A DNA stretch of 64,000 bases, taken from positions 372,001 through 436,000 of the forward strand of contig JAICWS010000002.1 of the NCBI GenBank assembly GCA_025934695.1, read 5' to 3'. Source of the DNA: Alphaproteobacteria bacterium (lineage in GTDB: Bacteria; Pseudomonadota; Alphaproteobacteria; Micavibrionales; UBA2020). The notes under the pieces are model-generated. The model saw nothing but the letters and a program-made list of their open reading frames with translations. It was not told where the DNA came from and searched no databases. Both the position numbers and the translations under genes were made by a program. Below, piece after piece: positions 45,158-50,609 of the stretch; within the stretch, counting starts at the first letter, position 1; the number at the start of each line of letters is the position of its first letter.

Positions 45158-45234
45158 GCGCCCGTAGCTCAACTGGATAGAGCATCTGACTACGGATCAG
45201 AAGGTTAGGAGTTCGAATCTCTTCGGGCGCGCCA
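45158..45234 (+). tRNA. tRNA-Arg (anticodon ACG), CCA encoded
   Basis: The acceptor arms GCGCCCG / CGGGCGC, D arm GCTC-GAGC, anticodon stem TCTGA-CTACGGA-TCAGA and T arm AGGAG-TTCGAAT-CTCTT fold canonically, and CCA follows the discriminator G. The anticodon is ACG, whose first base TadA (encoded at 39604) converts to inosine. The 3' half serves as the integration site of the island that follows. Confidence 0.96.
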
Positions 45235-45237
45235 TTT
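45198..45237 (+). repeat. Left attachment repeat (attL) within tRNA-Arg
   Basis: These 40 bases, from the anticodon stem through CCATTT, recur at 50570-50609 with a single mismatch (G at 45215 versus A at 50587). A tRNA 3' end copied in direct orientation is the classic footprint of a tyrosine integrase. Confidence 0.9.
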
Positions 45238-45476
45238 ATCCCCCTGTAAAAGTTTACTCAATGCCCGTCCCGCCGTTATTCTGGCCGGGTCTGAGCCATT
45301 TTAAGAAAGTGTATTGTGATGTCGCGCGGTGTAGGCAAACGAAGTGGGATGAAGAGAGTGTCTGCGAACCGGACGCGAACACGCTCCGGGAAAAGGAAGA
45401 AATCCCGATCCAAACCGACAAACGCCAAATTGATGGACCCGAGTAGCCCGAGTTTCACCAAACTTAGAAAGAGCCC

Positions 45477-46322
45477 ATGAAAGACGCCATCACCGATATT
45501 CAGAAGAAGTTGTCAAAAATCACGTTGCAGCAACAAGGGCTCCTCAAAGCCTTCTCCGACGCGCTGGCGGCAGGCGATATCGCAAAGCAAGCCGAAATTC
45601 AAAGGAAGCTTGCGCGTCTTGTCGCCGAGATGCAGAGGCTGGGTGACGAGCAGCGGTTCGCACAGCTCCACGACGGGGCTCCCTTAAGCAGAACGCGCGC
45701 GCGGATCACAGGTAAGACCTTGCGAGAGCAGGTCTTGGATGCCCTCGATGAGCTAGGCGTTCCCGTCCCTCCCTCGACTTTGAGCGAATTCACCCAAGCC
45801 ATCATGGGCGTTGAAATTGCGCCGTCGAGATTCGCTAGCCTGCGGCGTGACGAGCAGAACGCCGCCAAACGAAATATTGCTGCCAAGCCTGCATGGGTGG
45901 TCCCAGCGATCAGCGCCAGTCATTTAAACGCCATCCCCCGACTTCTCACAAGTTCAGTTTGGCCGCTGGAACGCCGGATCATCGGGGCGCGCACCCTGCG
46001 TGCAAATCATCTTTATGTCACACTCGCCTTCCTCACACGCTATGAGCGTCTTAAGGCAATCAATGCCCCGCAGACCGGAGCTACCGAAACGATGGTTCTT
46101 CGCTACGCGCGCGGGATTCCCGGCGCGGTCAAATCAGGATCGCCGATAAACCCTGACGACATCCGGCGGGCCGCGAAATCTGAACTGTCTTCCATCGAGG
46201 CGGAAGACCAGAATGAGCGCCGCGAGGCTGCGCAGAAGCTGAATGGCCGCTCCGAACATCAAAAGCTTTGGGGAATGCCGTCGTTGATAGATGGCGCAAT
46301 CCGTGAAGAGAGGGTTGGATGA
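45477..46322 (+). CDS. Island operon protein 1: coiled coil plus winged-helix-like region
   Basis: The 281-residue protein starts with an amphipathic coiled coil (about residues 1-62). A segment follows that looks like a helix-turn-helix (KTLREQVLDALDELGVPVPPSTLSEF, then FASLRRDEQNAAKRN). Basic residues are frequent, so it may bind DNA or act as an adaptor. I do not recognise the family. Its stop overlaps the next start by four bases, so it is translated together with the nuclease-like gene. Confidence 0.75.
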   Translation: MKDAITDIQKKLSKITLQQQGLLKAFSDALAAGDIAKQAEIQRKLARLVAEMQRLGDEQRFAQLHDGAPLSRTRARITGKTLREQVLDALDELGVPVPPSTLSEFTQAIMGVEIAPSRFASLRRDEQNAAKRNIAAKPAWVVPAISASHLNAIPRLLTSSVWPLERRIIGARTLRANHLYVTLAFLTRYERLKAINAPQTGATETMVLRYARGIPGAVKSGSPINPDDIRRAAKSELSSIEAEDQNERREAAQKLNGRSEHQKLWGMPSLIDGAIREERVG

Positions 46323-47428
46323 GCTCGGCGGACGCCAGAGTCGAACGCCTGCGCGGTTCCTGCAAAAACGAGGAACCGGGCGCGCGGGGCATCGAAAGGG
46401 TTGCACGCAACCCTGGTTGCCTTCGGCTGTGGGCCCTGACGATGGCGGGTGTCAAGCCTGCGACTGCGGCAAAAATTCTGGGAGGAGAGGACAACGAGGG
46501 TCAGTCCCCCTTCGCGTTGGCCCTTGGTCAGCGGTTTGATAAACACCTTCTCGACCATAGCGCGGCAAACCTCTTCGCGCTCTACCGCGAAAAGGGAATT
46601 TTAAATGATACCGAGGCAAAGATTGTCGATATTAACAACTTTGCGCCGGGCACGACCGCTGCTGACTTGGCGAAACGCCAAGCTGAAACGCGTCGGGCGC
46701 TGTTGTCCAAGCTGAGAGGTGAGGCCACCGCTCCGAACCTGATCATAAAGCCGCGCTTGGTCGTTAACTTGGTGGGCATTCCCCATCCTATCGAACCGGA
46801 CTATTTGGTCGCCGGCGATGCTGACCCCTTCTATGAGGTAGGCGAGCTCAAGTCCTATCCGGATCGCGGCGGCAAGACGGATGAGGCTGACATTCGCGGT
46901 GCTTGCCGGCAAGCGGCGGTGGGAGTCGTCGCACTCCGCCAATTCTTGGCGCTTCATACTCATTATCCGGAGAACCTAGCGAGCGCTCGAGCGCACATCA
47001 TTCTCAAAGTGACTGGTCTTTTTCTGGCTTCGCTCAATCGCATGGACATTGTTGGCGAAGTCGACTCTGTATTGCGCGCTTTGGCGGATGCGCCGGCAAA
47101 CCTCGACGAGCTGGAGGCGATGTTGCCAGCGGCTGGAACCCTCGATAATCCGCACGTGTTAAGCGCTATCCCGCACCACTATCGGTCGAGCTGTAAAGAA
47201 CACTGCGCGCTTTTTGAGCGCTGCCGCGCACAAGCGCGCGCTGAAAGCCAGCCTGCTGTTCTTGGCGACTTCGCCAAGGAGAAGCTTCTGGCTGCGGGGT
47301 CGGTCAACCGGGCCATCGAGCTTATGACCGGCACAGGGGCTCCGCCACGGACTCCGGCAGAAACGGCGCTGGCAAATGAACTGCGGGTTGCGAATGCCGC
47401 ATTCAGAAGGGGTGGTGGCAATGTCTGA
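46319..47428 (+). CDS. Island operon protein 2: Cas4-like PD-(D/E)XK nuclease with Fe-S cysteines
   Basis: The 369-residue protein has the nuclease core EPDYLV (Asp161), then GELKSY (Glu176, Lys178), then CRQAAVGVVAL (Gln198), the D...ExK...Q order of the Cas4/AddB/Dna2 nuclease group. One cysteine upstream (Cys34) and three near the C terminus (Cys292, Cys296, Cys302) match the ligand layout of the 4Fe-4S cluster in those nucleases. It would cut single-stranded DNA ends. There is no CRISPR array or Cas1 nearby. It overlaps protein 1 by four bases and protein 3 by eight. Confidence 0.75.
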   Translation: MSSADARVERLRGSCKNEEPGARGIERVARNPGCLRLWALTMAGVKPATAAKILGGEDNEGQSPFALALGQRFDKHLLDHSAANLFALYREKGILNDTEAKIVDINNFAPGTTAADLAKRQAETRRALLSKLRGEATAPNLIIKPRLVVNLVGIPHPIEPDYLVAGDADPFYEVGELKSYPDRGGKTDEADIRGACRQAAVGVVALRQFLALHTHYPENLASARAHIILKVTGLFLASLNRMDIVGEVDSVLRALADAPANLDELEAMLPAAGTLDNPHVLSAIPHHYRSSCKEHCALFERCRAQARAESQPAVLGDFAKEKLLAAGSVNRAIELMTGTGAPPRTPAETALANELRVANAAFRRGGGNV

Positions 47429-48866
47429 TCTTTTAAATCTCGTCGGACGTCTTCACGCACATCGTATAGGCCAGGCAGTTAGGGCGGCATCTCATCTGCA
47501 AACATCGATCCAGCCCCATGCGCTGGTTGTATGCCCGCTTGCGATGGCTGGTGAAGATACGGCGGTCCACGCTATCGCGGTTGGTCCTATCGGACAACCG
47601 CCGGAAGTCTATGTAATTCCTGATCCTCGCGTTCGCGATAAGCAGTACGAGTTAATTGCATGGTTCGGTGAAAAACTCGAAGTCTACTACGCGGAATGCC
47701 GCGCGCGGGGCGTGTTTCCGCAGTTCTGGGTATCATCGTCGGGGGCTGCAGGCCATTTGGATATCCTTGCCGACCGCCTGCGTTTCACGCGTGACGCACC
47801 TCACATCAAGCGCACAGGAGAATTGCTAACCTACGCGACCGAGAGGCTCCCCGTTGCTGGTCAGCAGGCGCTTTTTACCGCGACCGGCGCTTTACGTGCG
47901 CATTATTGCACGGGGCAGCAGGAATCCGAGGATGAACATCTCGGCGCTCTCCTCACCTGGATTCAACCGCCTTCAGGTATTGATATATATCAAGCTGTTC
48001 AGCGCGCGGAACAGCAGGTGATGGGCGTAAAGACGGATCCACAGTTCGATACCGACCACCTCCAGCCGATGCTGGCGGCCTATCATAAAGCCATCAAGGC
48101 GGGGGCATCGGAGCGCGAGATGGCGCTGCGTGAAGCTAGAATTCGTGAAGCGCTTACGCCCATAGTTACCAATATCTATGTCGCGGTGCAGCGGGCCTTG
48201 GAATTGTTGCGGGGGCAGTTCACGGCAGCTCCCATTCTCGACGAACTCGTGAGGACAGAACAACAGACCTTTGAAGGTTTCATGGTCGCGCGCGATGAAG
48301 GTCAGGCACTGCCCTATAGGGACCGCCCACGCGGTGCCGCGTTTAAGATCGCTGAACGCGAACTTGCGATTCAGAGCATCGAGAAGGGTTCTATCTTCGG
48401 GGATACGATGTCTCAGGCGCGCGCGCGCATCGAGGGGCGCATACTGAGCGGAATTGTGGCTGGAAAAACCTCCACGAAGGTACCTCGTAAGACGGAACAT
48501 CGTTTCGAGCTGCAAACGGAGCAGACCAATCTTCACATGCGGGCGGGCGATGAACTCGCGGCGCTGCATAACCCCAAGCTGCGGTGCGAGATCGAACATG
48601 TCGAGCGTACCGGGGCTACTACGCGTGTACGAGTTCTTGTCACCGCCGGCATGAGAATTCCGGGCTTGTTGCCCGACAACGGCGCGCATCTCGAACTCGC
48701 GGCACCGCCACCCGACTGGTACTTTTTGGTTGTTACAAGGAAAAAGATGTCGTCCCGGTTGGCAGAGACGCCTTGGACGCACGGCGAAGCCGGGCTGCCG
48801 CCGCAGGGCGGGGCCGCTGAGGGCCGCCCTAATGATCTGCTAGCAGCTGTTGAGGCCTTGCGATGA
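47421..48866 (+). CDS. Island operon protein 3, unknown
   Basis: The 481-residue protein has no recognised domain. The N-terminal 120 residues alternate strands and helices (HALVVCPLAMAGEDTAVHAIAVG, PEVYVIPDP), the middle is helical (about 170-300), and a C-terminal part (about 370-450) is strand-rich with FELQTEQTNLHMRAGDELA. There is no signal peptide. Its ATG at 47421 has AAGGGGTGG upstream and sits inside the end of the nuclease gene, while its stop overlaps the helicase start, so it belongs to the same complex or pathway by context. Confidence 0.7.
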   Translation: MSDLLNLVGRLHAHRIGQAVRAASHLQTSIQPHALVVCPLAMAGEDTAVHAIAVGPIGQPPEVYVIPDPRVRDKQYELIAWFGEKLEVYYAECRARGVFPQFWVSSSGAAGHLDILADRLRFTRDAPHIKRTGELLTYATERLPVAGQQALFTATGALRAHYCTGQQESEDEHLGALLTWIQPPSGIDIYQAVQRAEQQVMGVKTDPQFDTDHLQPMLAAYHKAIKAGASEREMALREARIREALTPIVTNIYVAVQRALELLRGQFTAAPILDELVRTEQQTFEGFMVARDEGQALPYRDRPRGAAFKIAERELAIQSIEKGSIFGDTMSQARARIEGRILSGIVAGKTSTKVPRKTEHRFELQTEQTNLHMRAGDELAALHNPKLRCEIEHVERTGATTRVRVLVTAGMRIPGLLPDNGAHLELAAPPPDWYFLVVTRKKMSSRLAETPWTHGEAGLPPQGGAAEGRPNDLLAAVEALR

Positions 48867-49609
48867 CAAGACCCGCTCAATCCCCTTCCGATGCCGCAGA
48901 CCAGACACTGAGAGACATTCTAAAGACTCAATGGGACCGAGTGCCTGCAGTGGTTTTGGATTCTCCGCCGGGGGCAGGAAAAACTGGCGTTGCTGAGCGG
49001 CTGGCTGCGCAGAGCCTTGGCCGCTTGCGGGAGCGAGTGATGATTACGACCCAGACGAACGAGCAGGCCTTCGATTTGGTGCGCCGACTCTGCCTCGGAT
49101 TCCCCCGCCTTCAATTTTATATGATGACGAGTGAACAGCTGGCGATTCCGCGAGAAATCCGTTTTGGCAACCTTCAGATCATTCATCGAGCCGCCGGTAT
49201 TCCAGACGGGCCGTGCGTAGTAATTGCCAACGCGGCCAAGTGGTCATTCCTCGATGCTGACCATCAGCTTTTTGACCTCCAAATCATCGACGAGGCTTAT
49301 CAGCTTGCCGACTATCGCTTTCATCAACTCGCCGGATTGGCGTCACGCCAATTTCTGATTGGAGATCCAGGCCAAATAGCTCCCGTCATTCAGTCTGAAC
49401 TCGAGAGATGGCGCTGCGATCCCACCGGTCCGCACGTGCCAGCCCCTAAGGCATTAATTCAACGTCATCGAGGCGTGCACCGTCTATGTCTTCCTGTGTC
49501 ACGGCGCTTGGTACAGGACACGGTGAATTTCGTGCAGCCTGCCTTTTATCCGGGCATGCCATTCGTGGCCCTCGATGCGGAGCGATCGCTGCGGTTTGAG
49601 ACGCGGGGT
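48863..49609 (+). pseudogene. Island operon gene 4: SF1 (Dna2/Upf1-like) helicase, truncated
   Basis: About 249 coherent residues remain: Walker A SPPGAGKTG (35-42), Walker B IIDEAYQ (141-147) and motif III LIGDPGQIAP (165-174), the first motor lobe of an SF1 helicase. Motifs IV-VI are missing. After about residue 249 (FETRG, base 49609) the frame continues to 49774 only through sequence antisense to a dGTPase gene, so that tail is not native. An intact homologue would be expected to unwind DNA or RNA for the nuclease encoded upstream. This copy is probably inactive. Confidence 0.8.
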
Positions 49610-49639
49610 TCTGCAGCTGCTTCGGACGCCATGTTGACC

Positions 49640-50364
49640 ATTCCGGCAGCCGCGAATAGCGGTCCGTCTACATCGTCAGGGAAAATGTTCTGGAACATGT
49701 CGACGATAATCAGTATTGCATCTTCGCCGGTAAAAGTTTTTCGATCTTTGATATCGTATTCCGGGCGTTCCTGAATCTTTTTCTCAACGTCAGCGGCGAT
49801 TTCACTGTAGAAATCCCCGCCAAAGGAAATGAGTTTGAGCGGGTGCAAAAATTTGGCTTTGAACGCGTCCTCGATATCATAAGTGGAATAGGCGATATCG
49901 TCGGCGATATCCATGATCTGGCATTCGACCGTCTTGAACTTTTTGCCTTCAGGGAGAACCCGTCCGGCCAAAGTCGAGCGTTTGATAAATTCGACGAGAC
50001 CGCCTTCTGAATCGTAATATCCCTTTGGCGCGCGCTTTTTAAATTTTTCAATCCGATCTTCCGCCTTTATGGGGATCCTGTAATCGTACTTCAAGACGGC
50101 AGCTAATACGCGAGCGGTAAGGTTCAAACCATACCTCTGATCCTTCCCCTCGCGTACCAACGTAAGTTTTTTTCCTGTAGCGCCATCGGTTGACGCAACC
50201 TTCTTCTCGAGCTTGGAGAGAATTCTCAATGTTTGAGCGTTCCCTTCAAAGCCTCCGTTACTACGCATACATTCATCCAGGGCCTCTTCGCCGTTATGCC
50301 CGAACGGCGGGTGACCTAGGTCATGCGCGAGTCCTGCCACCTCTACGATGTCTTCATCCACCAT
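49640..50364 (-). pseudogene. dGTP triphosphohydrolase remnant
   Basis: The fragment encodes AGLAHDLGHPPFGHNGEEALDE, the HD metal site of the Dgt family, and continues through MDIADDIAYSTYDIEDAFK, a later conserved block. The first 50-100 residues usual for the family are absent, including the RLTHSLEV histidine motif. The C-terminal end runs into the reverse complement of the helicase gene. Frames open to 49546, but the tail is not dGTPase. It is likely a broken gene; some dGTPases act against phage by draining dGTP. Confidence 0.8.
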
Positions 50365-50569: not shown

Positions 50570-50609
50570 CAGAAGGTTAGGAGTTCAAATCTCTTCGGGC
50601 GCGCCATTT
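50570..50609 (+). repeat. Right attachment repeat (attR), tRNA-Arg 3' fragment
   Basis: A 40-base direct copy of 45198-45237 with one mismatch inside the T loop (GTTCAAAT for GTTCGAAT). The 5' half of a tRNA is absent, so it is not a tRNA gene. The bases just beyond both copies (ATCCC...AAAA.TT.ACT) also look related. Confidence 0.9.

Follow-up and report, generated by a model that had tools for sequence, protein, structure and literature searches.

A truncated island operon of an alphaproteobacterium and its relatives: a candidate split Dna2-like helicase-nuclease with a possible role in defence

The DNA analyzed here, hereafter the window, is a stretch of 64,000 nucleotides from an alphaproteobacterium of the Micavibrionales (assembly GCA_025934695.1, contig JAICWS010000002.1, positions 372,001 to 436,000 of the forward strand). 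On a small island inserted at a tRNA gene, it carries an operon of four overlapping genes, designated P1 to P4, which is a damaged copy of a gene set that is conserved and, within the libraries and the literature searched, undescribed. We give about even chances to the reading in which the window holds the decayed remains of a four-gene, uncatalogued system encoding a split Dna2-like helicase-nuclease, whose role would most likely be a restriction-like defence against foreign DNA.

Relatives were collected by a scan of 84,980 species in which P4 was the sole seed. At least 548 were found, soil actinobacteria accounting for hundreds of them and alphaproteobacteria for a few, and the best 80 of these at least 548 were analyzed. 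P2 and P3 were located beside P4 by means of hidden Markov models, and a locus was counted only where its flank was long enough. P3 adjoins P4 in 78/78 of such loci and P2 in 77/77, and P1 is present in 57/75, the 18 loci devoid of P1 comprising 16 from Streptomycetaceae and neighbouring genera and two divergent metagenome contigs. Almost all of these best 80 loci keep the gene order, the genes of the cassette mostly overlapping or nearly so, and the four genes were recovered in order by BLAST; a tblastn search of plasmids gave matches to both P2 and P3 in Nonomuraea and on two Streptomyces plasmids. The recurrence of the four-gene set is far beyond chance. The pairwise distances of P2, P3 and P4 are correlated at 0.91-0.95 and those of P1 with P2 and P3 at 0.81-0.85, values to which the shared descent of the hosts contributes. 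The first-pass annotation of this DNA had made its candidate system depend on the co-occurrence of proteins 1 and 3 with the nuclease and the helicase, and the counts given above bear this out. The relatives closest to the window are those of four sphingomonads (45-59% identity). A viral origin was rejected, the scans of IMG/VR with P2, P3 and P4 patterns yielding no relatives and a phage collection yielding none of P3.

No credible family match was obtained for the window P1, P2 and P3 in Pfam, PADLOC-DB 2023, NCBIfam or PHROGs. Their sphingomonad and Streptomyces versions gave no credible match in Pfam or PADLOC, the one PADLOC-DB match among all these proteins being a marginal one of P1 to Specificity_I (E = 0.039). 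Searching P2 and P3 by sequence against the PDB returned nothing useful. P4 was identified by family search as an AAA_11/AAA_12 (Upf1/Dna2-like) helicase. The Mokosh system was considered and rejected, P4 giving only short and weak ATPase-motif matches to MkoA and MkoC. No description of the four-gene set was found in the literature, of which subscription journals and bioRxiv lay largely outside the coverage, and a term search of a paper on BREX-related systems revealed no Cas4, Upf1, RecB-like or superfamily 1 (SF1) helicase system. The lack of an entry for P1-P3 in all four libraries is in agreement with the earlier failure to match this set to a named system.

The structure of P2 was predicted with AlphaFold2 from 24 homologues (predicted local distance difference test, pLDDT, of 90.3); for this model and that of P3, the rows coming from plasmid records (two each) were removed from the alignments. 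The model matches Cas4 (7mi4; Z = 9.3, root mean square deviation (rmsd) of 4.7 over 203 aligned residues) and human Exo5 (Z = 8.6), and further MGME1, lambda exonuclease, AddB, AdnA and Dna2, these matches forming one consistent superfamily with individual Z values that are moderate. Among 79 P2 homologues, the cysteines C34 (78/79) and C292-x3-C296-x5-C302 (79/79) are conserved together with D161 (77), E176 (74), K178 (79), Q198 (76) and Y202 (73), a pattern that fits a putative iron-staple RecB nuclease. The window P2 keeps D161, E176, K178 and Q198, and a glycine replaces Tyr202. The E176V replacement occurs in five homologues in total, the four sphingomonads (L012-L015) and L043, all with an otherwise intact operon. 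Neither cas1 nor cas2 was among the 25 commonest families of the flank scan, no search having been aimed at them.

The P3 model (48 homologues, pLDDT 90.5) consists of two parts. Residues 31-280 match the DEDD exonuclease domains of family B polymerases and RNase T (Z of about 10, rmsd 3.5-4), and residues 298-448 match the stalk and 1B barrel of Upf1-type SF1B helicases, with Z = 9.9 for Setx 8ftm and Z = 9-10 for Setx/Sen1 (rmsd of about 7 over 135 residues). The barrel alone could be superimposed on those of IGHMBP2 (4b3g; Z = 8.3, rmsd 2.5, 87 aligned residues) and Sen1 (8rao; Z = 9.2, rmsd 2.4, 85 aligned residues). Since barrels are common, riboflavin synthase reaching Z = 8.4-8.6, the weight is put on the stalk and the barrel jointly and on the adjoining helicase gene, which is devoid of these parts. 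In the DEDD-like domain, the acids of motif I are absent (strand beta-1 has P39 and K, R, T or A at position 41) and only E170/D171 are conserved; because of these missing acids, the domain is probably non-catalytic. An active DEDD nuclease was rejected on the same ground, as was a wholly new fold, in view of the DEDD-like and Upf1-type matches. The protein had been presented as a 481-residue unknown: the length is right, but according to the model P3 is not wholly unknown, since it would consist of a DEDD-like domain and an Upf1-type stalk and 1B barrel.

In complete P4 proteins, all helicase motifs are found (80 homologues), motifs V and VI being invariant or nearly so. The two functional assignments of the first-pass annotation are consequently upheld, the Cas4-like Fe-S nuclease by the Cas4/Exo5/Dna2 fold match and the four conserved cysteines of P2, and the SF1 helicase by the AAA_11/AAA_12 match and the motifs of P4. 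In Upf1-type helicases, the RecA core comes after the stalk and 1B barrel, and the P3 and P4 genes follow one another in exactly this order. Taken with the nuclease fold of P2, the stalk and barrel of P3 and the RecA core of P4, this order makes a split Dna2-like helicase-nuclease the best reading of P2-P3-P4, to which P1 would be an accessory. Of the features of the Dna2/Bad type, the SF1B core with motifs I-VI is present in the 80 homologues and incomplete in the window P4, the predicted stalk and barrel ahead of the RecA core are encoded in P3 just before P4, and the predicted RecB-family nuclease with four putative Fe-S cysteines is P2; nuclease and helicase are separate genes in all loci and not one polypeptide. 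More tentatively, these genes could represent an unnamed and widespread defence system whose Dna2/Upf1-type helicase would be made of two proteins that meet at the border between the 1B barrel and the RecA core, assembled with a separate Fe-S nuclease and a dedicated P1.

The window operon itself is unable to work as a motor because the second half of P4 has been lost. P4 can be aligned with its complete relatives, of about 448 residues, as far as residue 249; this part holds motifs I, Ia, II and III, whereas motifs V and VI have been lost. Past this residue, the P4 frame runs antisense through a dGTPase gene fragment which matches only positions 82-261 of 425. Neither a second P4 copy nor the P4 3' half was found elsewhere in the 4.13-Mb genome assembly. 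P1, P2 and P3 are uninterrupted open frames, overlapping by 4 bases for P1/P2 (46319-46322), 8 for P2/P3 (47421-47428) and 4 for P3/P4 (48863-48866). The operon lies on a 5.3-kb island (G+C content of 56%, that of the window being 60%) flanked by a 40-base-pair (bp) direct repeat of the tRNA-Arg 3' end (Table 1). No integrase remains in the island. Both the coupling of the four genes by overlaps of 4-8 bases and their location on a tRNA island, as initially noted, were found again. The P4 and dGTPase genes seem to have been brought together by a deletion within the island. That both genes break at the same base, in a genome with an estimated contamination of 4.6%, is also compatible with a mere assembly join in a true genome endowed with a complete P4; we consider this improbable, as the matching 40-bp repeat closes the island within one contig and the P4 3' half is absent from the rest of the assembly. 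Whatever the intact system does, the window copy is probably what is left of an integrated island, dead and without function today: its P4 has neither motif V nor motif VI, the genome has no other P4, the adjoining dGTPase is a fragment and the island has lost any integrase. The open P1-P3 frames and the D161, E176 and K178 residues kept by P2 argue the other way, for P2 could act alone or the damage could be recent.

Table 1. Features of the island and of the operon in the window.
Feature	Coordinates	Strand	Basis or remark
tRNA-Arg (acg), island integration site	45158..45234	+	ARAGORN
Attachment-site repeat, left copy (40 bp, 3' end of tRNA-Arg)	45198..45237	+	Partner 50570-50609, one mismatch
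P1, 281 residues, N-terminal helical/coiled-coil-like region, unnamed family	45477..46322	+	
P2, 369 residues, Cas4/Exo5/Dna2-like PD-(D/E)XK nuclease (predicted)	46319..47428	+	Model, fold matches, conservation
P3, 481 residues, DEDD-exonuclease-like fold and stalk/1B beta-barrel (predicted)	47421..48866	+	Model, fold matches, conservation
Truncated P4, residues 1-249 of an SF1B helicase core (about 448 residues when complete)	48863..49609	+	Alignment to complete relatives
dGTPase gene fragment, both ends missing, antisense fusion to P4 end	49610..50364	-	
Attachment-site repeat, right copy (40 bp)	50570..50609	+	Partner 45198-45237

In the intact operons, P2 would supply an iron-sulphur nuclease of the Cas4/Dna2 type, P3 an Upf1-type stalk and 1B barrel joined to a DEDD-like domain that would bind DNA and is probably inactive, and P4 the two RecA motor domains. 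Once assembled, the complex would load onto incoming DNA where it is single-stranded, at its ends or at forks, translocate with ATP and cut the DNA, host DNA being spared, in the sphingomonads perhaps by the adjacent DNA methylase. P1, which is missing from the Streptomycetaceae-type copies, would be an accessory subunit, perhaps a regulator or a loader. It had been expected to be a coiled-coil/winged-helix protein, and this could not be confirmed: no family match was obtained and its N-terminus gave weak coiled-coil-like PDB matches.

The genes surrounding the relatives make an association with defence plausible, as a description of the neighbouring genes and not as a proof. In 4/4 sphingomonad loci, P1 is immediately preceded by a DNA methylase gene (N6_N4_Mtase); these loci also contain pairs of the RES/Xre or PIN/HTH type, and L013 has a PDC-M01A-type ATPase in addition. 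In Micromonospora musae (L020:7635-18689), the genes P1-P2-P3-GmrSD-P4-HsdM-HsdM-HsdS-HsdR follow one another on one strand as a composite restriction locus, and in Micromonospora qiuiae (L030:8875-9921) a RhuM-family gene is inserted between P3 and P4. A ResIII/DUF3427 helicase with a PLD-like nuclease domain was also observed near the cassette in two Micromonospora (L030:1457-4519 and L050:12337-15462). On two Streptomyces plasmids, JetABCD lies directly downstream of the operon, an arrangement compatible with an accessory module of Wadjet (JetABCD). We judge this reading very improbable and rejected it: Jet genes occur only beside these two plasmid copies and in none of the other 80 loci, the window genome is devoid of a JetD-type DUF3322, the four genes of Nonomuraea adjoin no recognizable JetA or JetB, and the operon and Wadjet have no component in common. 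Defence neighbours occur in the alphaproteobacterial loci, some Micromonosporaceae and the two Streptomyces plasmids.

Several observations weigh against a split Dna2-like enzyme that acts in restriction-like defence. Most actinobacterial copies are found in conserved chromosomal surroundings, which is unusual for mobile defence genes; those of Actinomadura, Nonomuraea and Streptomyces each keep their own constant and ordinary neighbours, indicating a stable chromosomal inheritance. The flank scan yielded mostly ordinary families, and the lack of Jet genes beside the other 80 loci goes in the same direction. As to the proteins, the Foldseek E-values were above 0.001 for both the P2 and P3 models, and both proteins gave an hhalign probability below 1% against TM0106, over its nuclease and RNase_H_2 regions. 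A glycine is found at P2 position 202 in 5/5 alphaproteobacteria, the tyrosine of QxxxY being lost, and a valine at the ExK glutamate 176 in 4/4 sphingomonad P2s (L012-L015); because of these replacements, the nuclease activity of the alphaproteobacterial P2 appears doubtful.

DNA repair is the main rival to restriction-like defence. The same split Dna2-like machine would mainly be an actinobacterial repair or replication-fork enzyme (end resection, flap or fork processing) and the island and plasmid copies mobile passengers, as could be expected from the family-level synteny and the ordinary neighbours in the three genera cited above, from fold neighbours (Dna2, AddB and AdnA) that are repair enzymes, and from the number of relatives (at least 548). 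We hold this role rather unlikely. The spread is patchy, P3 being found in 1/385 genomes of the window's own class, where a second match was marginal (E = 9.6e-4 over 78 residues), and P2 in 1/398 genomes of its phylum; GmrSD and RhuM interrupt the operon, and the non-syntenic copies are accompanied by restriction, methylase, toxin-antitoxin and Wadjet genes. Of the initial proposal, a candidate undescribed defence or DNA-processing system, the dedicated and co-occurring gene set stands, whereas the anti-phage role is not established, given the conserved chromosomal contexts of most actinobacterial copies and the truncation of the window copy.

Just before P1, the element AGCRTGGTATTGCATGGAAAAGCRTGGAAG-NN-TATATAG was found in 4/4 sphingomonad loci (L012:5301, L013:6591, L014:6582 and L015:6562), a few bases ahead of the start codon, the sequence upstream of it having diverged. 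It occurs once per locus and was obtained 0 times in 100 shuffles. The element reads as a promoter, with TTGCAT, 17 bases and TATATA as the -35 and -10 boxes, and GCRTGG occurs in it three times, at a spacing of about 10 bases and across both boxes, so that an operator is likely; this suggests autoregulation and perhaps a leaderless message. It is absent from the window. There, a very basic open reading frame of about 54 codons (45318-45479) occupies the gap between the tRNA and P1, with a stop that overlaps the beginning of P1; nothing similar was noticed in the sphingomonad loci, and chance may account for this frame.

Among known systems, TM0106 (TIGR03491) has the domain order PDDEXK_1 - RNase_H_2 - AAA_11 - AAA_12, which is that of P2-P3-P4, and its helicase is homologous to P4 (hhalign 99.8%, E = 2e-29), as expected for any Upf1-like helicase. 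It differs by its single chain of about 1,100 residues, by the lack of P1 and by the absence of a profile match to P2 or P3. A common architecture is thus supported and a common descent of the whole is not supported by the profiles; a straight descent from TM0106 was rejected, P2 and P3 being devoid of sequence-profile support. Cas4-like nucleases are also coupled to helicases in UvrD-Cas4 fusions and in COG1205 + Cas4 loci, often in defence contexts (PMC5704561), but there the helicase is of the UvrD-type SF1A or of SF2, and neither P1 nor P3 is present.

At least 548 relatives, mostly in Actinobacteria, appear to encode parts that would together amount to a split Dna2, and the family libraries used have no entry for three of these four proteins. 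Culturable Streptomyces and Novosphingobium carry intact operons, and the operon allows a direct test of Dna2-like helicase-nucleases as restriction enzymes. Should it be a repair complex instead, it would be an unrecognized resection-type machine in antibiotic-producing bacteria. Should restriction-like defence be right, the joint unwinding and cutting of foreign DNA would make it an SF1B-driven restriction enzyme, of the kind proposed for Bad, for which no demonstration was found in the literature consulted on the topic.

Dna2 and Bad are the nearest characterized machines. Eukaryotic Dna2 shares the Fe-S nuclease, whose domain P2 matches, the barrel and stalk, and the RecA core; it differs in being one chain, essential and devoid of a DEDD-like domain. 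Bad, from Geobacillus stearothermophilus, is a bacterial DNA2-like protein with an iron-staple four-cysteine nuclease and an SF1B helicase, whose single chain was shown to have 5'-3' motor and nuclease activities and contains an additional central domain that eukaryotic DNA2 lacks (PMC7430649). In Geobacilli it adjoins a DNA methyltransferase, and its authors proposed a novel restriction enzyme (PMC7430649). The likeness, drawn from the published description of Bad, extends to the Fe-S nuclease, the SF1B helicase, the extra domain and the methyltransferase neighbour, found here in the sphingomonads; Bad is one chain with a known biochemistry, whereas the present set consists of separate proteins together with P1 and is known from its genes.

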